Assembly: GCF_900142545.1 (NCBI RefSeq)
Contig: NZ_FRBF01000008.1
Location: forward strand, 62,001-126,000
Direction of reading: 5' to 3'
Source of the DNA: Fibrobacter sp. UWT2
GTDB taxonomy: Bacteria > Fibrobacterota > Fibrobacteria > Fibrobacterales > Fibrobacteraceae
DNA: 64,000 bases
Positions 52,000 to 64,000 of the stretch are shown piece after piece. Numbering within the stretch: the stretch's first letter is position 1; each line of letters starts with the position of its first letter. A program made the translations under genes and the position numbers. Under the pieces are notes generated by a model. It ran no database searches. It saw nothing but the letters and a program-made list of their open reading frames with translations, and had not been told where the DNA came from.

Positions 52000-54687
52000 A
52001 TGGCTAAGTATAATCCGCAAGAAATTGAAACCAAGTGGCAGGCTTATTGGGCTGAACATCAGACCTTCAAGACTGGCACTGACAAGTCTAAGCCCAAGTT
52101 CTACTGCCTGGACATGTTCCCGTATCCTAGTGGCGCTGGCCTCCATGTGGGTCACCCCGAAGGTTACACCGCAACGGATATCATTTGCCGCTACAAGCGC
52201 TCCAAGGGTTTCAACGTCTTGCACCCCATGGGTTGGGATGCTTTCGGCCTCCCCGCTGAACAGTATGCAATTCAGACCGGAACACACCCGGCAATCACCA
52301 CCAAGAAAAACTGCGACAATTTCCGCCGTCAGATCCAGCGCCTTGGTCTTTCTTACGACTGGGAAAAGGAAGTGAACACCACTGACCCGAAGTATTACAA
52401 GTGGACCCAGTGGATCTTCAAGCGCCTTTATGGCACCTGGTTCGATGACGAACAGCAGAAGGGCCGCCCCATCGAAGAACTGCCCATCCCCGCCGAAGTG
52501 GAAAAGGAAGGCACCAAGGCCGTTCGCCTTTACAAGGATTCCAAGCGCCTTGCTTATTACGCCGACGCTCAGGTCTGGTGGTGCAAGCACTGCAAGATTG
52601 TTTGCGCTAACGAAGAAGTTCTGAATGACGGTTCTCATGAAAAGTGCGGCACCAAGGAAGTGGAACGCCGTAACCTGAAGCAGTGGCTCATGCGCATCCC
52701 GCATTATGGCGACCGCTTGCTGAAGGGCCTCGATAAGCTGGATTGGCCCCAGGGCGTGAAGGACATGCAGAAGAACTGGATCGGCAAGAGCCAGGGTGCA
52801 GAAGTGGATTTTGCCATCGCTGATGCAAACGGCAAGCCCACCGAAAACAAGCTCCGCGTTTATACCACCCGTTGCGACACCCTGTTTGGTGCAACCTACA
52901 TGGTGGTGGCTCCTGAACACAAGCTGGTTCCGACCCTCACTACCCCGGAACAGAAGGAAGCTGTGGAAGCCTACGTTCACGCTGCCGCCCTCAAGAGCGA
53001 TCTGGACCGTACCGAACTCGCCAAGGAAAAGACCGGCGTGTTCTCTGGCTCCTACGCCATCAACCCGCTGACCGGCACCAAGATTCCGGTTTGGGTGGCT
53101 GACTACGTTTTGACTGGCTACGGCACCGGCGCTATCATGGCTGTGCCCGCCCACGATACCCGCGACTTCGAATTCGCAAAGAAGTTCAACCTGCCTGTTA
53201 TCTGCATCATGGAACCGGACGCATCCTGCCCGGAAGACGTGAAGCCCCAGGTTCTCGCTGGCGAAGCATGCTGGGCTGCCGACGGCACCTACATCAATAG
53301 CCAGAACGACACCCTTTGCCTCAACGGCCTCAACAAGGAAGCTGGCAAGGCTAAGGTGATCGAATGGCTCGAAGCCAACAAGATCGGTAAGGCTACCGTG
53401 AACTACAAGCTCCGCGACTGGCTCTTCAGCCGTCAGCGCTACTGGGGTGAACCGTTCCCCATCATCCACTGGGAAGATGGCGAAATCTCTACCGTCGACG
53501 ATGCAGAACTCCCCGTGCAGCTGCCGGACCTGCAGGACTACAAGCCGGGTGACGGCGGTCAGTCTCCGCTGGCCAACGCAACCGAATGGCTCAACGTTGT
53601 AGACAAGAACGGCCGCAAGGGCGTTCGCGAAACCAACACCATGCCGCAGTGGGCTGGTTCCTGCTGGTACTACCTCCGCTATATTGACGCTTGCAACGGC
53701 GACGCATTCCTGGCCAAGGAACTTGAAAAGTACTGGATGCCCGTTGACCTGTATGTGGGCGGTGCAGAACACGCTGTGCTCCACTTGCTGTACAGCCGTT
53801 TCTGGCACAAGGTCCTCTTCGACCTGGGCCTCGTCTCTACCGACGAACCCTTCCAGAAGCTCTTTAACCAGGGCATGATTCTTGCCTTCGCTTACGAAGA
53901 CGCAGCCGGCTCCAAGGTTCCCACCGACGAAGTGGAAGAAAAGAACGGCAAGTTCTTCAAGAAGGGTACCGACATCGAACTGAAGCAGATTGTTGCCAAG
54001 ATGAGTAAGTCCCTGAAGAACGTTGTGAACCCGGACGACGTGGTTCGTGACTACGGTGCAGACAGCCTTCGTTTGTACGAAATGTTCATGGGTCCTCTGG
54101 ATGCCGTGAAGCCTTGGCAGACCAAGGGCATCGAAGGTATGAACCGCTTCCTGGGCCGCGCATGGCGTTCTGTGGTAGGCGACGACGATGCAGCTCCCGT
54201 CTTCGTTGACGAAGCCGCTCCGGAAGAAATCCAGAAGATTATGCACCAGTCCATCATCAAGGTGACCAGCGACATTGAAAACATGAGCTTCAATACCGCT
54301 ATCAGCCAGCTGATGATCTTCAACAACGAAATGATGAAGATGGACAAGCGCTACCGCGAACCTTGCGAAACCTTCGTAAAGCTCCTGCAGCCCTTTGCAC
54401 CCCACATCGCCGAAGAAATGTGGAGCATCCTGGGTCATGAAGGTTCCCTCACCAACGTGGCTTGGCCTGAAGCTGACGCAAGCAAGGCTGTGGAAAACAC
54501 CGTCGAAGTCGTGTTCCAGGTGAACGGCAAGCTCCGCGCCAAGGCAAATGTCGCCAAGGACATGGACAAGGCTGCTCTCGAAGCCCTCGCCATGGCTAAC
54601 GAACGCGTTCAAGAGTTTACTGCTGGCAAGACTGTGGTTAAGGTTATCGCCGTGCCGGGTAAGCTGGTGAATATTGTGGTGAAGTAA
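52000..54687 (+). CDS. leuS: Leucyl-tRNA synthetase
   Basis: An 895-residue class I synthetase charging tRNA-Leu. HIGH-type motif in [19 protein letters not shown] (HVGH, 49-52), the CP1 editing domain with [14 protein letters not shown] (threonine-rich site) and [12 protein letters not shown], a Leu-specific zinc-knuckle-like CKHCKIVC, and KMSKS at 667-671. The anticodon-binding and C-terminal domains are complete ([29 protein letters not shown]). Strong codon bias toward GAA, AAG and CGC fits high expression. It is the last core gene before the AT-rich island. Confidence 0.97.
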
Positions 54688-54843: not shown

Positions 54844-55395
54844 TTATCGCAATATTGTTAAAGTATCTGCTGGAATAAAATCGCACAACCATACTCTTTC
54901 ATTCCCAATGTAAAAATGTACGCCTGCATCTTCAGCTTTCACCGTATCAATTTGTAAAATAATAGGTGTGGAATCCCGTCTCTTACCAACTTGCGTAGCC
55001 ATGTCTGTGTCTATGGAAAGATGGACATATTGACGACGCATTGGTTTGAGACCTTCATTAAGGATAGATTTCAGGGCCCTGTGTGTCGTTCCGTGATACA
55101 GAATTGCTGGTGGAGTTCCTGCGATTTTCTTGATCATTTGAGGAACGGAATGTCCATACAATGCTCTAATCTTGTTAGCAACAATTTCATGACGTTTCTT
55201 TTCAGAAATTTTAATGATGTGTTCAAGATCCGTCAAATCAATGTTGCGCTCGTATTTCTCCGATTCGTTTAGGGCGAATAACAATTGTTCAATAGGAACG
55301 AAACCTTCGGCGTCCAATTCGAGCTCGTATTCCCAAGGAGCATGGCGCAGTGCGTAGGAAATTTCCTTGGACAGTTCTGTATAGTTTATGGACAT
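54844..55395 (-). CDS. kptA: KptA/Tpt1 RNA 2'-phosphotransferase
   Basis: A 183-residue protein with all KptA hallmarks: SKEISYALRHAPWEY with the active-site Arg17-His18, EGFVPIEQLL, IRALYGHSVP, LYHGTT (His101) and RRQYVHLS (Arg121-Arg122). The enzyme removes an internal RNA 2'-phosphate using NAD+, through an ADP-ribosylated RNA intermediate. Bacteria lack the tRNA-splicing junction it serves in yeast, so bacterial roles are open; possible ones include RNA repair or nucleic acid ADP-ribosylation. It is the last gene of a four-gene operon in which every gene overlaps the next, here by 10 nt. Confidence 0.93.
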   Translation of the reverse strand: MSINYTELSKEISYALRHAPWEYELELDAEGFVPIEQLLFALNESEKYERNIDLTDLEHIIKISEKKRHEIVANKIRALYGHSVPQMIKKIAGTPPAILYHGTTHRALKSILNEGLKPMRRQYVHLSIDTDMATQVGKRRDSTPIILQIDTVKAEDAGVHFYIGNERVWLCDFIPADTLTILR

Positions 55396-55784
55396 TGATT
55401 GCCTGCTTTTTCAAGGTCGTTGTCGTAATACCAACAAGTGGACTTACGATTGCCGTAATCAACCATATAGCGGAAACATTCTCGGGCGGAATGATATGTC
55501 ACGTTGTAAATACGACCAGTTTTGTTTTTTGCATTTATTTTGACAATGTCATTTGTTAAGAAGGATGGTTTTCCGATAACCTTGAAACCATTCGTTTTGA
55601 TTTCCAGTTCTGCGTATCCAGTAGCTTCGTTTGTTGATTGAATGACAAGAATGTCTTCTCGCTCTTCAATGACGATGAAGTGCCCGTTCCACCATCCACT
55701 TGCGTTCCAATCAATGGATTCTCTAAAAGGAGATTGCACATAATCGTGATTCTCGATACGACCATAAGAGTGAATCATGCTCAT
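55386..55784 (-). CDS. Small beta-rich protein of unknown family in the kptA operon
   Basis: About 132 residues from ATG 55784 (GGAGGAAGAA just upstream; an ATG at 55796 is possible). No signal peptide or membrane segment. The sequence is beta-strand-rich and aromatic (WNASGWWNGHFIVIEE, YAELEI, IVKINAKNKTGRIYNVTYHS) and ends with YMVDYGNRKSTCWYYDNDLE, a pattern like an SH3/Tudor-like barrel. No family was recognised. Its ATG overlaps the upstream stop (ATGA) and its end overlaps the kptA start, so it is firmly within the operon. Confidence 0.6.
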   Translation of the reverse strand: MSMIHSYGRIENHDYVQSPFRESIDWNASGWWNGHFIVIEEREDILVIQSTNEATGYAELEIKTNGFKVIGKPSFLTNDIVKINAKNKTGRIYNVTYHSARECFRYMVDYGNRKSTCWYYDNDLEKAGNQCP

Positions 55785-56281
55785 TTCTTCCTCCATTTGG
55801 ATTTTCTTGCAAAGACAGAACTTGGTAATGAAGATAGTATTTTTTCTGCCTCTGGAAGTGATTTTTCATTAGGTTTATAGTGGCCACTATCTGTATCTAT
55901 ATTAAATATTTTACCGTTGCGAATGTCTATCATGCCAGCGCATTTTACCTTTGGATTTTTGCCGCCAATAAGCATCGGATGTGGAGATCGAAGAGTTGGA
56001 TTATCGGGATTCTCTCGTTTCCCGAAAATTAAGTTTCCCTTTTCGTCGACGACATAAGTGTATTTTCCATTTGCTTTTTTTCCATCCATATACACAGCAT
56101 TTCCTTTTATTGCATCTTTAAGGTTTGTTGCTGTTGGATTCTTTGGATACCCTTTTTCAGGAATGAGAATGCCGTCCTTTATGTCTTTCTCCTTCATGTT
56201 TGCCATAACGCTGTATTTTGAAGCGAAAGGCTGGGATGCGCCTCGCGTTCCGCTGTAGAGTCCGCTTACACTGCTACCCAT
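55781..56281 (-). CDS. SGHYKP-motif protein in the kptA operon
   Basis: About 166 residues from ATG 56281 with a strong AAAGGAGG. The N-terminus MGSSVSGLYSGTRGASQPF is followed by YPKNPTATNLKDAIKGNAVYMDGK, YTYVVDEKGNLIFGKRENP and VKCAGMIDIRNGKIFNIDTDSGHYKPNEKSL (in two parts). From memory this matches an uncharacterised family found in Gram-positive genomes and as C-terminal modules of polymorphic-toxin-like proteins; I cannot confirm that here. No signal peptide. Overlaps DUF4417 upstream by 8 nt and the small protein downstream by 4 nt. Confidence 0.6.
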   Translation of the reverse strand: MGSSVSGLYSGTRGASQPFASKYSVMANMKEKDIKDGILIPEKGYPKNPTATNLKDAIKGNAVYMDGKKANGKYTYVVDEKGNLIFGKRENPDNPTLRSPHPMLIGGKNPKVKCAGMIDIRNGKIFNIDTDSGHYKPNEKSLPEAEKILSSLPSSVFARKSKWRKK

Positions 56282-56954
56282 TTTTGCCTCCTTTCTTGCG
56301 AGTAATCCAATCAGGATATTGATGAAATTCTGCATATTTCAGGTAGTGTTCAAATACCTTGTTTGGCATTGCTCCGTGAACAAGAACGATTCTGGGTGTG
56401 AGTGTTTGCAGGCATTCATGCAACCCGGCTTCGAAATGATATTTGTCACCTTTAGACTTGATACAGCCATAGGTGCTGATGACGATAATGCTGTCCTTTG
56501 GAACTCCGGCAAATGCGATTGCTTCGGGTAGCTTACAATTGGTGTAGGTTTCTTCGTTACCCCATCGAACAAACGGATAAACATTTAGGCCGCGGGACTG
56601 GAAATAGTGACCAATGATTCTATTGCGAACCACATTCAGTAATTGTGCGTAGAGAGGCGCGTCTCTATACAATGAACAGTCTGGTGGGAGGACCACGGGA
56701 AACTGCCGGAATTCGTTAATGTATTTTTCCGGATCGCGAATTACATCTGCAAACTTGATGTCGTTTTCAAAGAAACCTAGAGCTTCTTTATTTGTAGGCT
56801 TTTCATTTCGTCGACTGAAGGGGGTGATTCCGTTTGGGATGATGATAGATTTGGGCTTGTCAAGTGCCGGAACTTCGAATAGCCCATCAAAACGGGCATT
56901 TTTTACCAGTTCCGGATTGAAACCGTCGTCTATGGTGGCTTTGTAAAATTTCAT
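56274..56954 (-). CDS. DUF4417 protein, first gene of the kptA operon
   Basis: A 226-residue protein with the DUF4417 pattern: NGITPFSRRN, FFENDIKFADVIRDPEKYI, FPVVLPPDCSLYRDAPLYAQLLNVVRNRIIG, FVRWGNEETYTNC, IIVISTYGCIKSKGD, FEAGLHECLQTLTPRIVLVHG. The family is frequent in phage and mobile-element DNA and is functionally unknown; the Asp/Arg residues in PPDCSLYRD are candidate active-site residues (inference). It starts the operon that ends with kptA and is divergent from the ABC-3C operon across a 138-nt gap. Confidence 0.78.
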   Translation of the reverse strand: MKFYKATIDDGFNPELVKNARFDGLFEVPALDKPKSIIIPNGITPFSRRNEKPTNKEALGFFENDIKFADVIRDPEKYINEFRQFPVVLPPDCSLYRDAPLYAQLLNVVRNRIIGHYFQSRGLNVYPFVRWGNEETYTNCKLPEAIAFAGVPKDSIIVISTYGCIKSKGDKYHFEAGLHECLQTLTPRIVLVHGAMPNKVFEHYLKYAEFHQYPDWITRKKGGKNG

Positions 56955-57040
56955 AGAAATCTCCTATTACGTAGTTTCAGCAAGCTCCATTCCTGCTTTG
57001 ATGAGTAAATTAGGAGTTCTGTTTTGAAAATTTGCGTCGG

Positions 57041-57069
57041 GTTGCAACGCTTTGTTGCAGTATGTTGCA
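57041..57069 (+). promoter_or_regulatory. Operator-like GTTGCA repeats before the ABC-3C operon
   Basis: GTTGCA occurs at 57041, 57054 and 57064; TTGCAAC and GTTGCA at 57042-57059 form an inverted repeat around GCTTT. It lies 24 nt before the first ABC-3C gene in the divergent gap, where a repressor controlling both operons could bind. Confidence 0.45.
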
Positions 57070-57092
57070 ATTAAATTATTAGATTAGAAGAT

Positions 57093-57950
57093 ATGGATTT
57101 TTCACTATTTGCTCAATTATTAAAACCGCTTTTAGGTAAAGGCCTGAATCAAGACGAGTTTGTTCAAAGCCTGTTCTATGCGATAGTAGTTTTTCCGAAT
57201 AGTGAGAGCTTTGTTGATCCTCTAGAGAATGTCAAATATTCTATGTACCGTTTATACTTTTCTGGAAGTCGTCGAATCAATGAAATTGCGTATAAAATAT
57301 GCAATTATGCTGATCGAGAAATTTTCAGGGATTATGTTTTGAAGCAGAATGATGAGGTCCAAACGCAGCTGTGTAACGCGTTTAAGCCTTATATTCGGAT
57401 TTCGAAGAGAAATGTACCTGAAAAATTAGCAGATTTGTTTTATGAAATAATTTTCAACGCATCAAAAGAAAAGGGAAAACGGAAGAGAATCCCAAAGATG
57501 AAATCTAATAAGTTTGCTGATACATCAGAGGATGTTTTGCAAATTAAAGAATCTCTTGGTGAAATTATAAAGGAATTAGTTAAAACTGGCACAAACCCTA
57601 AAGAAAGTGAACGCCTGAAAATGCATGCTGTTTGTGTTTCAAACAAAATAACAGATAGTTCTATTTTATGTGAATCGGTTACGCATTATGCTGTTGTTTA
57701 CTTCAAAACCATTAGAAAACTTTTTAGGAATGTGTCAAAATCAAATAGTATTGATTTTGATGATGTTGCGACTGCTGTAAAATTTGAATATAAAAAATTG
57801 AAAAATAAGGGTTTATCTCAGGACGAAATCTACAATGCAATGGTTCAGTGGATTTGCACCAAAACGAATTCTACAAATATTACGGCTTGTTCCGTAATAG
57901 TCTCTTTCTTTGTTCAAGATTGTGAGGTGTTTGATGTTGTTGCCAAATAA
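57093..57950 (+). CDS. ABC-three-component (ABC-3C) system variable/effector-side protein
   Basis: A 285-residue protein, AT-rich and highly charged, without recognised catalytic motifs. The N-terminus (LLKPLLGKGLNQDEFVQSLF) and helical middle (ESLGEIIKELVKTG) resemble effector-side components of ABC-3C systems with a C-terminal ABC-3C-coupling domain (CTD7-like from position and partner, tentative). Context is the evidence: it is directly followed, with overlaps, by a small middle-component protein and a DUF2326-type ATPase. ABC-3C systems were predicted to be defence systems in which an SMC/Rad50-like ATPase triggers an effector on sensing nucleic acid. AGAAG precedes the ATG. Confidence 0.55.
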   Translation: MDFSLFAQLLKPLLGKGLNQDEFVQSLFYAIVVFPNSESFVDPLENVKYSMYRLYFSGSRRINEIAYKICNYADREIFRDYVLKQNDEVQTQLCNAFKPYIRISKRNVPEKLADLFYEIIFNASKEKGKRKRIPKMKSNKFADTSEDVLQIKESLGEIIKELVKTGTNPKESERLKMHAVCVSNKITDSSILCESVTHYAVVYFKTIRKLFRNVSKSNSIDFDDVATAVKFEYKKLKNKGLSQDEIYNAMVQWICTKTNSTNITACSVIVSFFVQDCEVFDVVAK

Positions 57951-58167
57951 ACTTTGTACATATCAAGAAAGTTCTCTACCTTACTTTATTGCGATTTTAG
58001 GGGAACTCAAGAATGCTTCGATGATGCCAAGTGAGCTTTATGAAAGGGTTTTGAAGAAAGACAAAAAAATTGATTTACTGGAATTTGTAGAAATTCTAGA
58101 TAGTCTTTTTGCTTTGGGAAAAGTTGAAATTGATTTGATGACAGGGGCTTTGAAATATGCTGACTAG
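57934..58167 (+). CDS. ABC-3C middle component (MC7-like)
   Basis: About 77 residues from ATG 57934 (TGAGG upstream), overlapping the previous gene by 17 nt. LLPNKLCTYQESSLPYF at the N-terminus, SELYERVLKK and LLEFVEILDSLFALGKVEIDL match the small middle components that link ATPase and effector in ABC-3C systems; the pattern is closest to MC7 as I recall it. Winged-helix-like size. Its end overlaps the ATPase start by 11 nt, so the three products are made together. Confidence 0.65.
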   Translation: MLLPNKLCTYQESSLPYFIAILGELKNASMMPSELYERVLKKDKKIDLLEFVEILDSLFALGKVEIDLMTGALKYAD

Positions 58168-59803
58168 AATAGAGTGTGATAAATTTTTAGATGATGGAAA
58201 AGGTCGCGAACCCATCGTATTCCACTCGGGTTTGAATGTGATTTTAGGAGGTTCAAAAGCCGACAATGCTGTCGGAAAATCAACATTTTTGCTTGTACTT
58301 GACTTTGTTTTTGGGGGTGATTCCTATGTCAAATCAAATAAGATGCTTTTTGAAAGAGTCGGACATCATGAAATCAAGTTTGAATTTGAATTTAGTGGCG
58401 AAAAGTATTTTTTCTCTCGCTCAACGCAAAAGGACAAATCAAAAATTGTAAAAAGATTTGTTGGCGAAAATGTTGAAGAGTTGTCTATTGTTGACTATAA
58501 AAAACTCTTGCAACGACTTTATTCAATTCAAAATGAAGGGCTATCGTTTAGAGATTTGGTTGGAACTTTCACAAGGGCTGTTGGAAAGTACAATGCTGAT
58601 TACAGAAATCCGATGCGCTCGGCAAAGGGGGAAACTGGGGAAAAATGTGTTCGTCGTCTTCTTAGAATGTTTAATGCGTATGGACCGATTGAGTCTGCAT
58701 TGAAAGAAGAAAAAATTGCCGAAGAAAAAAAGGCGATTATGCAAAAAGCGGTAAAATACGACATAATCTCAAAGATTCCCTCAAAAACAGAATGCGAAAA
58801 AAATCAAAAAGAATTACTTCGCCTTGAACGAGAGCTAGAGACATTGAAGGTAGAAAATGAATTGGGAATATTAGATGGGAAAAGTATTGATGCAAAACGG
58901 ATAATTGAACTTCGTAATGAAAAGTCTAGACTTCTGTCCAAGAAATTCAAATTACACAATAAGCTTGAATCACTGAAAGAAAATAAAGAACGCCCGCAAA
59001 CACTGAAATCACTAGAAAAACTTCAAGATTTTTTTCCTTCTGTGAATGTAAAAAAGATTGAGGAAATAGAATCATTTCACAAAAGTCTTTGTAGTGCTTT
59101 GAAATCAGAAACGGAAGAAGTTGAATCAGCAATTGTTGATGAATTGGAAAAAATTGAAGATCAGATTCAAAAAAATGAGGATGAAATTATATCCTTAAAT
59201 GCTCCTGAAAATGTTTCATCAAAGGTTGTAAGACGGTTGGTTGATTGTGAAATGAAAATTGAAAAATTGAAAAAGCTGACCCAACAATATGAAATGAAGC
59301 AGGAATTGGAAACCGCTAAGTGCGAAATTGAGGCGAACCTTGAAAATCTTCAAAAGAGTATTTTTCCTGGGATAGAAAGTCAGATTAACGATCGCGTTGC
59401 TGAATTGAACCGATTGATAAAGGGAAGCGAAGATACTCCACCTAAAATTACTATTGAATCTTTAAAAAAATATGTGTATGAAAACGAAAAAAATGATAGT
59501 ACTGGAGCAATGGTAAGATACCAGAATCTCTTCGACTTTACGATGCTTGAAAAAACATCTTTGCCTTTTTTTGTTCAAGACTCGGCGGACTTGAAGCAAG
59601 TGGAAGATGATTCCTTCCTAAAGATCATTGACTTGTACGCAACAACGTCAAAACAAATTTTTATTGCTATTGATAAAACCGAATCCTACACAACGGACGG
59701 AAACTTACCGAAGAATATTGAGGATAATATTGTGCTAAGACTTTCCAAGGGTCATGAACTATTTGGCTTTAGCTGGAGTAAAGAAAAAACTTCTGGACAA
59801 TAG
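58157..59803 (+). CDS. ABC-3C ATPase, DUF2326-type, SMC/Rad50-like
   Basis: A 548-residue ATPase with split ABC halves. The N-terminal half has GLNVILGGSKADNAVGKSTF (Walker A with an insertion, 31-43) and Q-loop region; long coiled-coil arms span about 190-440 (ELLRLERELETLKVENELG, VDELEKIEDQIQKNEDEI); the C-terminal half has SLPFFVQDSADLKQVEDD and FIAIDKTESYTT as the D-loop/Walker B side. The signature motif is not obvious. Rad50-like ATPases of this kind bind DNA ends; here it is inferred to be the sensor of the ABC-3C system. Confidence 0.78.
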   Translation: MLTRIECDKFLDDGKGREPIVFHSGLNVILGGSKADNAVGKSTFLLVLDFVFGGDSYVKSNKMLFERVGHHEIKFEFEFSGEKYFFSRSTQKDKSKIVKRFVGENVEELSIVDYKKLLQRLYSIQNEGLSFRDLVGTFTRAVGKYNADYRNPMRSAKGETGEKCVRRLLRMFNAYGPIESALKEEKIAEEKKAIMQKAVKYDIISKIPSKTECEKNQKELLRLERELETLKVENELGILDGKSIDAKRIIELRNEKSRLLSKKFKLHNKLESLKENKERPQTLKSLEKLQDFFPSVNVKKIEEIESFHKSLCSALKSETEEVESAIVDELEKIEDQIQKNEDEIISLNAPENVSSKVVRRLVDCEMKIEKLKKLTQQYEMKQELETAKCEIEANLENLQKSIFPGIESQINDRVAELNRLIKGSEDTPPKITIESLKKYVYENEKNDSTGAMVRYQNLFDFTMLEKTSLPFFVQDSADLKQVEDDSFLKIIDLYATTSKQIFIAIDKTESYTTDGNLPKNIEDNIVLRLSKGHELFGFSWSKEKTSGQ

Positions 59804-59858: not shown

Positions 59859-62813
59859 TTACAGTTTCTCAATAATCTCCTTCAGATTTTGAGTTTTGAT
59901 TTGTTTTTCAAAATGCACATTGACGCCAGCCGAAGATAGACATTCAAAGAATTTCTTTGCGGATTCGATTTTCAATTTTTCTCCACCACGAAGATCCTTT
60001 TCGGCATCTTTAACATCCTTGCATTCCACAATAAGGTTGAGTTCTTTCTTCCCGTTTCTCTTTACGATATACATAAAGTCAGGGCTGTAGGTTTCTCCAA
60101 GAATCGTTGGAATTTGGATTGTTTTTCGAGGAATTTTGCCGAAAACATCTACTCCGTCAATGTCATTTAGTATGTCATCCTTTTCCAAAGGGGAATCGAA
60201 TGTGATTGCATCGTAGAGGTATTTTTCAGGAACATTACTGCTATCGGTTTGGGTTCCAATAAGTCCCTGTTGAATGAATTTTTCTGCGTTGCCCTTATCA
60301 TCATTCAATGATGTTTTCTTGATTCTGCTTCGTGCAATTTTCTGATAGCTGAATCGTCCCATAAGATTCTTAATTTTCCAATCGTGAATTACACGGCAGA
60401 TATTGAAAAGAGACTTCTCGTTGAATAATGGCTTGCCACCATTTTTTACAAAAATGCAAAGAGCCTTGTGCATTTCAGTAATAGGAACAGATTCCTTTGC
60501 TTGAACTCGTTGCAGGAACTTACCATAGGGAATGGGCTTTTCAGTTTCGTATGTTTTTGATTTGGAATCTTTCAAAGAAGCAAACCCGTTTTCTGTAACA
60601 AGTTCTTGTCTAGAACTTGTTAGAACTGTTTTGCTGAATAGCTCTTGCTTGATAAGTTCCGGCAAAGTCTTGGATAGTTCTTCGTTGATACTCTCCTCAA
60701 AAGTGAGCATATAATGCTCGTTCATTTTGAGCCAAAGGTCTTTTAGAACCGAGTAGTTTTTGCTGCGAATACCGATATTTTTCTTTTTGGGTTGTTTATT
60801 GCGGTCTACAATTTTTTTCTTTGTGGCACTTTGCCTGAACAAGTCTGGATACTCGCTCTCAAATGCATCTACATTATCTTTGTTGACGGGGTAACCGGGC
60901 ATGTCATCTTTGCGACGGCCGATGAATTTCTTTCCATAAAGTTCGTCGTATAAATCATCAACGTCAATTCCAAATTTTTCGGCGTAAGCTTGAAGTTGTT
61001 CCTCTGTAATAAACATCAACTCGCTACGTTCACCGTTGATTTCCGCAATCAGCTTATTTGCGAAATCCTCTTCCGTATAATCCACAATGTAGTTCAATGT
61101 AAATTCTTCATCGGTAATGCGTTTGCCGGACTCGTTTACGGGCAAACGGAGGCCGCGGCCTACTTCTTGAAGTTTACTGATTTCGCTTCCACTGGAACGA
61201 AGTTTTGCGATGGTAAATACATTTGGGTTGTCCCAGCCTTCCTTCAAGGTCCATTTGGAGAAAATGAATCGCCTTGGACTGTCAAAAGACAATAGGGTTT
61301 TCTTGTCATTCAAAATTTCGTTGACTTGCTTTGAAATTTCTTCGTCGCTAGAGGAATTGTCTTCTGCAAAATATCCACCATGAGCGTCTTCAATATTTTT
61401 CAAAGAATTTTCAAGGTAGATTTTGTAATTTTTTTCAGAAGCTTCTAGCTTGGTGATAAATTTCTTCGTTTCTGTTTTTAGAATTTCTTCAAATGATTTC
61501 TTGATATAGCCGTTTTTGTCGCGATAGGCAGCGATGTCGTCAATAAAGAATAGGGCCAGCGTCTTGATTTTGTCTTCGCGCTTGTAGTTTTCGCGTTCTG
61601 TTTCTAAATGCCGTTGAATGGCCATACGAATCATTGATTCTTGATATGGCGTGGCGTACATGTCTGGTGTGATAAAAGAACCTTCTTTTAAAATTATTCC
61701 ATTAGAAAGTAGAACGGAATTCTTTGACTCGAAAGAGTCTATTCTTAGATTGCCGAAATCGTCATGAATTTCAGATAGCAACTCGTCTATCGTTAGAGTT
61801 TTTTGACGATTCTTATTTGACGCATCTTTCCAGGAGAACTTGATTGTTTCGGATGTTTTTTCAATAGAATCTACACGGACCTTTATATTTTCAGCATCAT
61901 TAGATTGAGGTAAGTGCTCCTTAGCGATTCCTTTGATGAGATTTTGTTGAAAAGAATCGTATGCGTCGAGATTGTAGACTAGATTTTTGTAATCCTTGAC
62001 AATTTGCTTTGACTTTCCTTTTCCGATTACGATTTCGGGGTATGTTGCACCGAAACGAATAAGCATTTGAGGACAAAGCTTATTCATGATTGCGTCAATA
62101 ATTTTTGTTTCAGAAGAAAATCGATGCGGCTCGTCAATGATTACGATGGGTCGAGTTGCCTTGAGAGCGTCCAAAGGACAATAATAATTTCCAATACCAT
62201 AATCAAAATCGTCCTTTGTGTAATTTGAATTGGTAAGAAGGCTGCTGTTCAACAAAAGAACAGAAATGTACTTGTCCGATTGACCGGGGTTCTGATAAAA
62301 ACCGGAAACAGCAGAAGGAAACATCTTCCTTTTGCTGGAACTCTTTTGCCCTGAACCTTCGAATAGTCGGATTTCTGTACCGTATTCACAATCTTGCTCG
62401 AAATGACGTTTTACATCAGGACTTTTAAGGAAGTTGGCTGCACCTGCTTTAATGGCGAGTCCTGGAACTACAAGGATGAACTTACTGATACCATGTTGTT
62501 TGTGCAATTCATACATGGTCTTTGTATAGACGTATGTTTTGCCCGTGCCGGTTTCCATTTTTACATCGATGTAGATGCACGGATTTTCTGCATTGCCAAG
62601 TGCGGTTTCTGCAGAAGTGAATCCTTTCATTCCCTTGTCAAAGTCTTTTTGTAGGATCTTAAGGACTTGTTCTAATTTTTTATCTTGGGGATGGAAAATT
62701 TTGTTGGAGGCATAGTCCAATGAATTTTCGCTTTCAATTGCGTCGACGACTTGTAGAATCTTGTCAACGGCTCGTTGTTGATGCGGAAGATTTGCTTCGA
62801 ATTGAAAATCCAT
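59859..62813 (-). CDS. Type III restriction endonuclease subunit (Res)
   Basis: A 984-residue SF2 helicase-nuclease. N-terminal LPHQQRAVDKIL (Q-motif-like), Walker A METGTGKT (86-93), DEPHRF (motif II, DExH-like), GATYPEI, then KEGWDNPNVF and EVGRGLRLPVNESGKRI (motifs V-VI). The C-terminus has the nuclease core PDFMYIV...LIVECKDV (PD-ExK type, about 905-935). Together with Mod it cuts DNA about 25 bp from paired unmethylated sites after ATP-driven movement or sliding. It lies 9 nt after the mod stop, the usual mod-res order. Sequence appears intact. Confidence 0.92.
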   Translation of the reverse strand: MDFQFEANLPHQQRAVDKILQVVDAIESENSLDYASNKIFHPQDKKLEQVLKILQKDFDKGMKGFTSAETALGNAENPCIYIDVKMETGTGKTYVYTKTMYELHKQHGISKFILVVPGLAIKAGAANFLKSPDVKRHFEQDCEYGTEIRLFEGSGQKSSSKRKMFPSAVSGFYQNPGQSDKYISVLLLNSSLLTNSNYTKDDFDYGIGNYYCPLDALKATRPIVIIDEPHRFSSETKIIDAIMNKLCPQMLIRFGATYPEIVIGKGKSKQIVKDYKNLVYNLDAYDSFQQNLIKGIAKEHLPQSNDAENIKVRVDSIEKTSETIKFSWKDASNKNRQKTLTIDELLSEIHDDFGNLRIDSFESKNSVLLSNGIILKEGSFITPDMYATPYQESMIRMAIQRHLETERENYKREDKIKTLALFFIDDIAAYRDKNGYIKKSFEEILKTETKKFITKLEASEKNYKIYLENSLKNIEDAHGGYFAEDNSSSDEEISKQVNEILNDKKTLLSFDSPRRFIFSKWTLKEGWDNPNVFTIAKLRSSGSEISKLQEVGRGLRLPVNESGKRITDEEFTLNYIVDYTEEDFANKLIAEINGERSELMFITEEQLQAYAEKFGIDVDDLYDELYGKKFIGRRKDDMPGYPVNKDNVDAFESEYPDLFRQSATKKKIVDRNKQPKKKNIGIRSKNYSVLKDLWLKMNEHYMLTFEESINEELSKTLPELIKQELFSKTVLTSSRQELVTENGFASLKDSKSKTYETEKPIPYGKFLQRVQAKESVPITEMHKALCIFVKNGGKPLFNEKSLFNICRVIHDWKIKNLMGRFSYQKIARSRIKKTSLNDDKGNAEKFIQQGLIGTQTDSSNVPEKYLYDAITFDSPLEKDDILNDIDGVDVFGKIPRKTIQIPTILGETYSPDFMYIVKRNGKKELNLIVECKDVKDAEKDLRGGEKLKIESAKKFFECLSSAGVNVHFEKQIKTQNLKEIIEKL

Positions 62814-62822
62814 GGCGACCTC

Positions 62823-64000
62823 TTAGTAACGAACTTCCAGTTGAATGTTGATGTCGCTAATTCCCTTGATGTTTGCTTTTAAGGTTTCTAGCATGGTCAT
62901 GCCAAAACTGTAGCCAAATGCAACGATATGTTTGGGTTTGAAGTTGTTCTCCTCATCGTATTTTTGGAAAAGAGACTTTATACTTTCGTTGCTGATTCCT
63001 TCGTCAATAAGATATAGATAATCGTTGATTCGGAATGCCTTGTAGCCCTTTAAATCAATGGTTTCAACTTGGGCGTTGAAGGTGTGGCCATCGTTAACCA
63101 TCCATGTGGCAAGAACAGTTTCGGTTCCGAATTCCTTTAAAACAGATGCATCGCCAATATTTGTATTTATATCGAACTTGATAATTTTGTCGATGGATTT
63201 TTGCGTCGTTTTTTGAATAGTGAAATGTTTGAAACCAAGATCGCCTTCGTAGTCAGGATTTTCTTCCTTGATTTTCTTTGCTGCACGGCGGATTCGTTCC
63301 ATGCCAATTTGGTCAAGAGTATGAGGCTTGTTTATGGAGTCTAGGAATTTGATTGCGTTTTTGGTAACGGAGTTTTGTTTTTGCTCATCTAGTGCAACAT
63401 TGAGCTGTACGGCGATAAATTGGACGTTTTTCCCAAAATCCTTGTTTGAATTCATGTTGAGAATTGAGTGTGCTGTTGTGCCACTTCCTGAAAAGAAGTC
63501 AAGAACCAAATCATTCTTTTTAAGGGTAAAGTCAATAATTCTTGAAATGAGATTTTCTGGTTTTGAATTGCTGAAAACCTCAATTCCATTAAAAAGATCT
63601 TTTACCATTTGACTTGACGCTCTAGTGTCTTCGTATATGACCGATTTGAGTAAGTCGGAAGCAGTTTCTATACGCTTTTTGATGTGGGGTTGTGTTGATT
63701 CATCTTCACCCCATACAACTTCCCCTTTTTTCTCATAATCGTTAAAAGTTTCTTTCGGCCATCGCCATCCATTTGTGGGTTTTGGACAAGGCTTCTTTGT
63801 AGTGGGGTGTAAAATGTCGTAATTGTAATCGCCTGGTTTTGTATTTGAAGAATTTGATGAACTGCTGAATACTCCTTTTTCATCAACATTGTTGTAGTGA
63901 GAAACTTGCGGAAGTTCGTCTTTGTGCTTTTTTATCCAAGATCTTAATTCTTCTTGAATTTTTTCAATATTTGAATATTTGTTCTTCAAAATTTCATATT
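62823..64000 (-). CDS. Type III DNA methyltransferase (Mod), N-terminus outside the window
   Basis: The frame stays open to base 64000, so only the C-terminal 392 or so residues are seen. It has the AdoMet-binding motif I DLVLDFFSGSGTTAHSIL and the preceding GWRWPKETF and NLISRIIDF segments of beta-class N6-adenine methylases; the catalytic DPPY motif would lie to the right of the window. The order motif IV before motif I fits the beta class used by type III Mod proteins. The protein sets the recognition site of the system and protects host DNA. The apparent start at 63989 is a TTG within the gene, not the true start. Confidence 0.9.
   Translation of the reverse strand, partial: YEILKNKYSNIEKIQEELRSWIKKHKDELPQVSHYNNVDEKGVFSSSSNSSNTKPGDYNYDILHPTTKKPCPKPTNGWRWPKETFNDYEKKGEVVWGEDESTQPHIKKRIETASDLLKSVIYEDTRASSQMVKDLFNGIEVFSNSKPENLISRIIDFTLKKNDLVLDFFSGSGTTAHSILNMNSNKDFGKNVQFIAVQLNVALDEQKQNSVTKNAIKFLDSINKPHTLDQIGMERIRRAAKKIKEENPDYEGDLGFKHFTIQKTTQKSIDKIIKFDINTNIGDASVLKEFGTETVLATWMVNDGHTFNAQVETIDLKGYKAFRINDYLYLIDEGISNESIKSLFQKYDEENNFKPKHIVAFGYSFGMTMLETLKANIKGISDINIQLEVRY

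Follow-up and report, generated by a model that had tools for sequence, protein, structure and literature searches.

An overlapping toxin, immunity and kptA operon with a DUF4417 partner gene in Fibrobacter sp. UWT2 as a candidate polymorphic-toxin cassette

Results

Composition of the operon

The window, a stretch of 64,000 nucleotides of Fibrobacter sp. UWT2 (contig NZ_FRBF01000008.1, positions 62,001 to 126,000 of the forward strand), carries a compact operon of four genes on its minus strand (54844–56954). In minus-strand order these are a DUF4417 partner gene (56274–56954; 226 residues, PF14386 with an E value of 3e-45, predicted TIM barrel); a putative toxin gene named here SGHYKP after a conserved motif of its product (55781–56281; 166 residues, a short leader followed by a polymorphic-toxin C-terminal domain); a small DUF6960-related gene for a probable cognate immunity protein, relatives of which lie behind the same toxin domain (55386–55784; 132 residues); and kptA, encoding an RNA 2'-phosphotransferase of the Tpt1 family (54844–55395; 183 residues, PF01885 with an E value of 9e-39). 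The toxin leader, MGSSVSGLYSGTRGASQPFASKYSV (56207–56281, minus strand), is of a type common to other DUF4417-partnered toxins. Successive genes overlap by 8, 4 (ATGA) and 10 nucleotides, as the initial annotation had described, and clear GGAGG ribosome-binding sites accompany the SGHYKP gene and the small gene. Neither the SGHYKP protein nor the small protein of the window had a credible match in Pfam, NCBIfam or PADLOC, and the toxin family stands outside Pfam.

Among 151 relatives, the SGHYKP protein was present in four genomes, which represent four species of Fibrobacter, always in the order DUF4417, SGHYKP, small gene, KptA; in one of the four (loci L003/L048) the DUF4417 gene and the junction between toxin and small gene are disrupted. 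Because this order repeats in four genomes at differing genomic sites, the arrangement is not due to chance. The possibility, allowed for at the outset, that these genes are never neighbours elsewhere and form an accidental unit is likewise refuted by the adjacency of toxin, immunity gene and KptA in several phyla. We class SGHYKP among the polymorphic-toxin domains, and the window operon as a variant cassette in which DUF4417 is the partner.

The SGHYKP toxin domain

A genome-wide scan recovered 35 SGHYKP loci, 33 of them outside Fibrobacter, from at least seven phyla including Bacillota, Spirochaetota, Synergistota, Actinomycetota (Bifidobacterium), Cyanobacteriota, Pseudomonadota and Myxococcota. 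The domain forms the C-terminus of large proteins of 2141, 2150 and 1156 residues (L085, L081 and L090), all three counted as RHS C-termini, with RHS-core sequence ahead of the domain in L085 and L090, and it ends a CdiA-type (CdiA/FHA) protein in L088. Orphan cassettes are found in L005 and L091, and a Cronobacter plasmid relative stands directly behind a VENN pre-toxin domain, within an array of orphan cassettes that follows a hemagglutinin-repeat protein. Searches of phage, plasmid and viral collections gave one plasmid relative with P0003, three records with the Nostoc form and no phage or viral match to the toxin. These carriers bear out the early suggestion that the protein is toxin-like; judged by its homologies, it is an undescribed polymorphic-toxin domain and presumably toxic.

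Across an alignment of 28 toxins, P100, H101, P102, L104, G106 and G107 as well as S132, G133, H134 and P137 are invariant, giving the motifs PHPxLIGG and SGH(Y/F)(K/R)P, and R89 is nearly invariant. In the window toxin the two motifs read PHPMLIGG (55961–55984, minus strand, with H101) and SGHYKP (55871–55888, minus strand, with S132 and H134), and both are candidate active sites. D33 is the sole invariant acidic residue; the alignment has no invariant glutamate of the kind that the ADP-ribosyltransferase (ART) fold uses in catalysis, and so does not fit an ADP-ribosyltransferase toxin. The AlphaFold model of the toxin is confident (predicted local distance difference test, pLDDT, 90.4; predicted template modelling score, pTM, 0.84). 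Foldseek retrieved nothing significant for it from the PDB, the best VIA match, human phosphohistidine phosphatase (Z 5.1 over 83 residues), was too weak to be used, and the best BFVD match (E value 1.3e-3) was an unnamed entry.

The small protein as probable immunity partner

In RHS and CdiA-type loci, relatives of the small window protein are encoded immediately after this toxin domain. Two of these relatives and the Cronobacter one match PF22283 (DUF6960), and a common alignment includes the window protein; the SH3-like label given to it initially was a guess. Two putative immunity families occur behind the toxin, namely the DUF6960-related family of the window protein and a second one of about 155 residues that has no Pfam match; a gene of one or the other follows nearly every SGHYKP toxin. 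Since the small protein is related to a family encoded behind the same toxin elsewhere, it is probably a dedicated immunity partner of the SGHYKP toxin, a role that had been proposed initially and that we consider likely. In the open-licence PubMed Central (PMC) literature searched, DUF6960 is named in no paper. The second family is marked by the pattern YLFNCxF..DPDG and was seen in L065–L083, L094, L096 and L203.

Conservation of KptA and its linkage to the toxin

The window KptA aligns almost end to end with the CthTpt1 structure 6e3a (E value 4e-61) and keeps the Arg-His-Arg-Arg catalytic tetrad (R17, H18, R77 and R121) and the HGT motif (residues 101–103). It belongs to the KptA/Tpt1 family and is predicted to be an NAD+-dependent RNA 2'-phosphotransferase. 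The toxin-linked KptAs (14 aligned) likewise retain the catalytic residues, with exceptions in L181, where lysine replaces the second arginine, and in L190, where the gene as called starts late.

In 11 of the 35 toxin loci, KptA is co-oriented with the toxin or immunity gene and directly follows it, with a gap of -34 to +77 nucleotides; one of these (L097) consists of remnants of both genes, and the locus counts are not fully independent because some loci from metagenome-assembled genomes are near-duplicates (e.g., L066/L075 and L078/L082), for which reason we place no weight on a binomial tail computed from them. Outside Fibrobacter the figure is 9 of 33, from Bacillota, Spirochaetota and Cyanobacteriota. 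Six further toxin loci, one with only a fragment, have KptA on the other strand within 2.2 kb. This recurrent linkage upholds the tie between KptA, the SGHYKP protein and the small protein that the operon had suggested. At the level of whole genomes, KptA occurs in 21/33 toxin genomes compared with 29/200 Lachnospiraceae (Fisher p 1e-8) and 7/121 Fibrobacter relatives, a background that is not lineage-matched to the toxin genomes. In the Nannocystis genome of L090 (G176), a KptA gene at C1:266696-267196 may be about 10 kb from the RHS-SGHYKP toxin, if both are on the same contig.

Because KptA has this low frequency among Fibrobacter relatives, and DUF4417 is found in only 25/121 of them, neither is a housekeeping gene there; within the genus, each complete KptA gene seen adjoins the small gene. 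KptA goes with the toxin and not with DUF4417, because it follows the toxin even where DUF4417 is lacking: toxin, immunity gene and KptA occur without DUF4417 in L084, L086 and L091, and in L069 DUF4417 is reduced to a fragment. Membership of KptA in a DUF4417 module was rejected, as DUF4417 loci with other toxins are without KptA. The KptA tree divides the operonic KptAs between two deep clades and requires 8 changes of the operonic state, at least three of them forced by supported branches; the association of KptA with the toxin therefore probably arose more than once.

KptA beside a second toxin and after toxin loss

A second toxin shows the same arrangement. In all three of its loci the toxin, which ends an LXG-type protein encoded behind ESX-like genes (L179), a fragment at a contig edge (L181) or an RHS protein (L190), is followed by an immunity-like protein of 119–121 residues, with a weak SUKH_5 match (E value 5e-4), and then by KptA. 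A search of 328 Lachnospiraceae genomes gave no other full matches; the first two came to notice through KptA, and L190 was found using the toxin as query. Profile comparison finds the second toxin and SGHYKP unrelated, and so gives no support to a common ancestry of the two. The second toxin has a motif like that of Tox-ParBL1 as described in PMC3482391, which also notes that the ParB superfamily includes phosphotransferases; a ParB fold for this toxin is suggested by the motif only and was not confirmed.

KptA is also found in an immunity array behind RHS in L180 and behind Imm48 in Paenibacillus RHS loci (L168–L170). The L180 array, together with the KptA genes at leuS island sites and the half of the toxin loci that have no KptA, would fit a passenger gene with no tie to the SGHYKP toxin, caught up in immunity islands that gather small genes. 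We consider this unlikely: overlapping or near-overlapping start-stop junctions join KptA to the immunity gene in several phyla, the tree indicates several independent recruitments, and the second toxin has KptA in the same slot in 3/3 loci.

Several loci keep the immunity gene and KptA without an intact toxin. In L043, a stub of the toxin's final 32 residues, identical to the toxin of genome G032, directly precedes the immunity gene and KptA, both intact and respectively 98% and 90% identical to their G032 counterparts. In L044, a polyimmunity array beside leuS, the SGHYKP immunity gene and KptA are each 80% identical to those of the window and are accompanied by relatives of the small genes that go with EndoU and deaminase toxins; tblastn found no SGHYKP toxin or DUF4417 there. 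On a Treponema plasmid, KptA lies behind an immunity remnant. Mainly because it is retained beside immunity genes after loss of the toxin, which is the pattern of an immunity gene, we read KptA as protective. The opposite role, in which KptA itself would be the effector, ADP-ribosylating 5'-phosphate ends of RNA or DNA under restraint by the small protein, draws on the ability of KptA/Tpt1-like enzymes to ADP-ribosylate phosphate ends and on their suggested use as toxins (PMC11833690). It is highly improbable given that KptA stays with immunity genes in L043 and L044, follows the immunity gene in operonic loci and stands alone in many genomes.

DUF4417 and its exchangeable toxins

DUF4417 genes in Fibrobacter adjoin genes whose products start with MG(S/T/G/R) and differ in their C-termini: SGHYKP, a YwqJ deaminase (PF14431, E value 1e-4), EndoU (PF14436, E values 9e-20 and 3e-13) and others of no recognised family. 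The short toxins partnered with DUF4417 share an MG..G leader. In L057, DUF4417 is 79% identical to that of the window and the leader is of the same type, with a YwqJ-deaminase C-terminus and another small gene. In a Bacillota sample, four DUF4417 loci passed the family cut-off, and each of them adjoins an MG-leader gene as well. From these neighbourhoods, DUF4417 appears to be the partner of several unrelated, exchangeable short toxins, and it may act in their processing or delivery. MG-leader proteins without a Pfam domain were also seen beside DUF4417 in L051, L052, L054 (MGGRGTFAAG..HALPEESHSS), L053 and L056 and are candidate toxin families. A divergent DUF4417-like group in Fibrobacter (L024, L026, L027 and L030–L037) has other downstream genes, to which no family was assigned.

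The DUF4417 model is a TIM barrel (pLDDT 88.7), for which VIA ranked DpdA (7ui4, Z 9.1) first, followed by TGT at about 8.7, at 8% identity. The Foldseek E value of the model was not significant and DUF4417 had no sequence match to TGT or DpdA, and we take the likeness as one of predicted fold only. Phage proteins that join DUF4417 to ParB-CTPase folds are described in PMC12704722.

The island and its other genes

The operon lies in an island of 33–43% guanine plus cytosine (GC), against about 52% around it, and the AT-rich setting next to ABC-3C and type III restriction genes that was described initially is confirmed. A divergent intergenic region of 138 bp (56955–57092) separates the operon from an ABC-3C system on the plus strand (57093–59803; CTD11, MC7 and a DUF2326 ATPase), and type III restriction-modification genes follow on the minus strand (59859–63998). 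The left boundary is leuS (52000–54687, plus strand), whose last 410 codons (residues 486–895) have a second copy, 93% identical in DNA, that lies 10.7 kb downstream and beyond the window (G000:C8:127416-128648, corresponding to window positions of about 65416–66648). leuS is an island hotspot, because L044 and L057 of other Fibrobacter genomes hold related toxin or immunity genes beside it. The N-terminus of the CTD11 protein (57093–57950) matches LmuA in PADLOC (E value 1.5e-15).

ABC-3C is divergently paired with a DUF4417-toxin operon in the window, in L057 (Fibrobacter), in L068 (Lachnospira) and in L071 and L074 (Bifidobacterium), and the pairing is present in pieces in L073 of Treponema. 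We regard ABC-3C as a recurrent neighbour and as a candidate member of the system. This pairing in several phyla, the type III restriction-modification genes on the same island and the missing delivery domain of the window copy would suit an intracellular toxin-antitoxin or abortive-infection system directed against phages, in line with the initial proposal of a phage-defence or infection-sensing unit. That proposal is not supported, and we judge such a function improbable: PADLOC matched only the ABC-3C and restriction-modification neighbours and none of the four operon proteins, the phage and viral collections searched gave no match to the toxin, its relatives belong to interbacterial toxins carried by RHS and CdiA-type proteins, and the immunity-only loci fit interbacterial competition.

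Discussion

Taken as a whole, the operon is best read as a two-layer polymorphic-toxin cassette in which toxin, probable antidote and kptA are packed as one unit and KptA provides a further, enzymatic layer of immunity by erasing RNA 2'-phosphates made by the toxin; we put the probability of this entire reading at roughly 60%. The comparisons establish the gene linkage, the homologies of toxin and immunity protein, the conservation of the catalytic residues of KptA and its survival beside immunity genes once the toxin is gone; toxicity, neutralisation by binding, RNA as the target, the 2'-phosphate lesion and the part played by DUF4417 are predictions. The SGHYKP toxin would place a phosphate on the 2'-hydroxyl of RNA, or otherwise leave an RNA 2'-phosphate that needs no religation. 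The DUF6960-related protein would neutralise the toxin, presumably by binding it, and KptA would use NAD+ to remove the 2'-phosphate as ADP-ribose cyclic phosphate, thereby undoing the lesion. Of the RNA-repair role first suggested for the operon, repair after infection is thus replaced by a narrower proposal, in which KptA reverses damage done by the adjacent toxin.

A different chemistry would make the SGHYKP protein a metal-independent ribonuclease that leaves 2',3'-cyclic phosphates, which a host 2H enzyme opens to 2'-phosphates and KptA then heals before religation. The two invariant histidines, S132 and the near-invariant R89 would suit such an enzyme, as would D33, which as the only invariant acidic residue leaves no obvious metal site or ART glutamate; moreover, nuclease toxins predominate among polymorphic toxins (PMC3482391), and an end-healing function in the repair of RNA in phages has been proposed for KptA (PMC9503650). 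However, ligation would still be required. Profile scans of the window's four proteins identified no RNA ligase or end-healing partner, and visual inspection of the listed toxin-immunity-KptA neighbourhoods, of which not every neighbour was profile-scanned, revealed no ligase, kinase or 2H protein. We take the ribonuclease seriously as a minority possibility, and a toxin that writes 2'-phosphates is preferred to it, only modestly, because KptA alone can reverse such a lesion and genes for a ligase, kinase or 2H enzyme were not recognised in these operons. The most specific form of the preferred reading, namely that SGHYKP, and perhaps the second toxin with its ParB-like motif, kill by phosphorylating RNA 2'-hydroxyls with KptA as the dedicated eraser, is speculative and on its own rather doubtful.

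Several observations weigh against the enzymatic-immunity reading. The window toxin has only a short leader, and the operon's Pfam matches include no secretion domain. Since its fold has no clear PDB match, the activity of SGHYKP is read from conserved residues and from the company it keeps. KptA is also not obligatory: 18/35 toxin loci have none within the stretch examined, 12/33 toxin genomes, some of them incomplete, show none at all, and most KptAs in the unselected Lachnospiraceae sample stand alone.

KptA removes RNA 2'-phosphates using NAD+, and its role in bacteria has been termed a longstanding conundrum, as Escherichia coli has no ligase to generate its substrate and grows unaffected when kptA is lost (PMC6333775). 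That toxin, immunity gene and KptA recur together in several phyla, and with two unrelated toxins, offers a concrete and testable hypothesis for this puzzle. If it is true, toxin immunity would be one native role of bacterial KptA, and the toxin chemistry would be one undescribed in the literature consulted. In addition, the locus adds a new toxin family outside Pfam, a probable immunity role for DUF6960 and a probable role for DUF4417 as companion to exchangeable short toxins. In the open-licence PMC literature searched, no paper connects KptA with a toxin immunity locus, the nearest being PMC11833690.

Comparison with known systems

The cassette resembles polymorphic toxin systems (RHS, CdiA/CDI and LXG; Zhang et al. 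2012, PMC3482391) in that the C-terminal toxin is swapped between carriers, a probable cognate immunity gene lies 3' of it, and orphan cassettes and polyimmunity loci occur. Unlike in those systems, the window toxin has a short leader and a DUF4417 partner in place of a large carrier, kptA comes after the immunity gene, and the toxin family is outside Pfam; the portion of the text of PMC3482391 available to us mentions neither KptA nor DUF4417.

Enzymatic immunity has a precedent in Tri1, which protects against Tre1. Similarly, PARG hydrolases protect against the RNA-modifying toxin RhsP2 (PMC11833690). In these pairs an enzyme reverses the chemical lesion of a toxin, as is predicted for KptA; in contrast to both, the predicted eraser KptA would act on a 2'-phosphate, and its gene comes third, in addition to one for a distinct immunity protein.

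ArkI is the kinase of archaeal tRNA 2'-phosphorylation. PMC9095486 describes this modification in thermophilic archaea as reversible and removed by KptA. As in that account, an RNA 2'-phosphate would be a reversible mark removable by KptA; unlike there, where the modification stabilises tRNA, the proposed writer here is a toxin outside any Pfam family. Finally, the window KptA is of the same family as the KptA/Tpt1 enzymes of PMC6333775 and has the same catalytic residues, and it differs from them in that a genomic role is now proposed for it.
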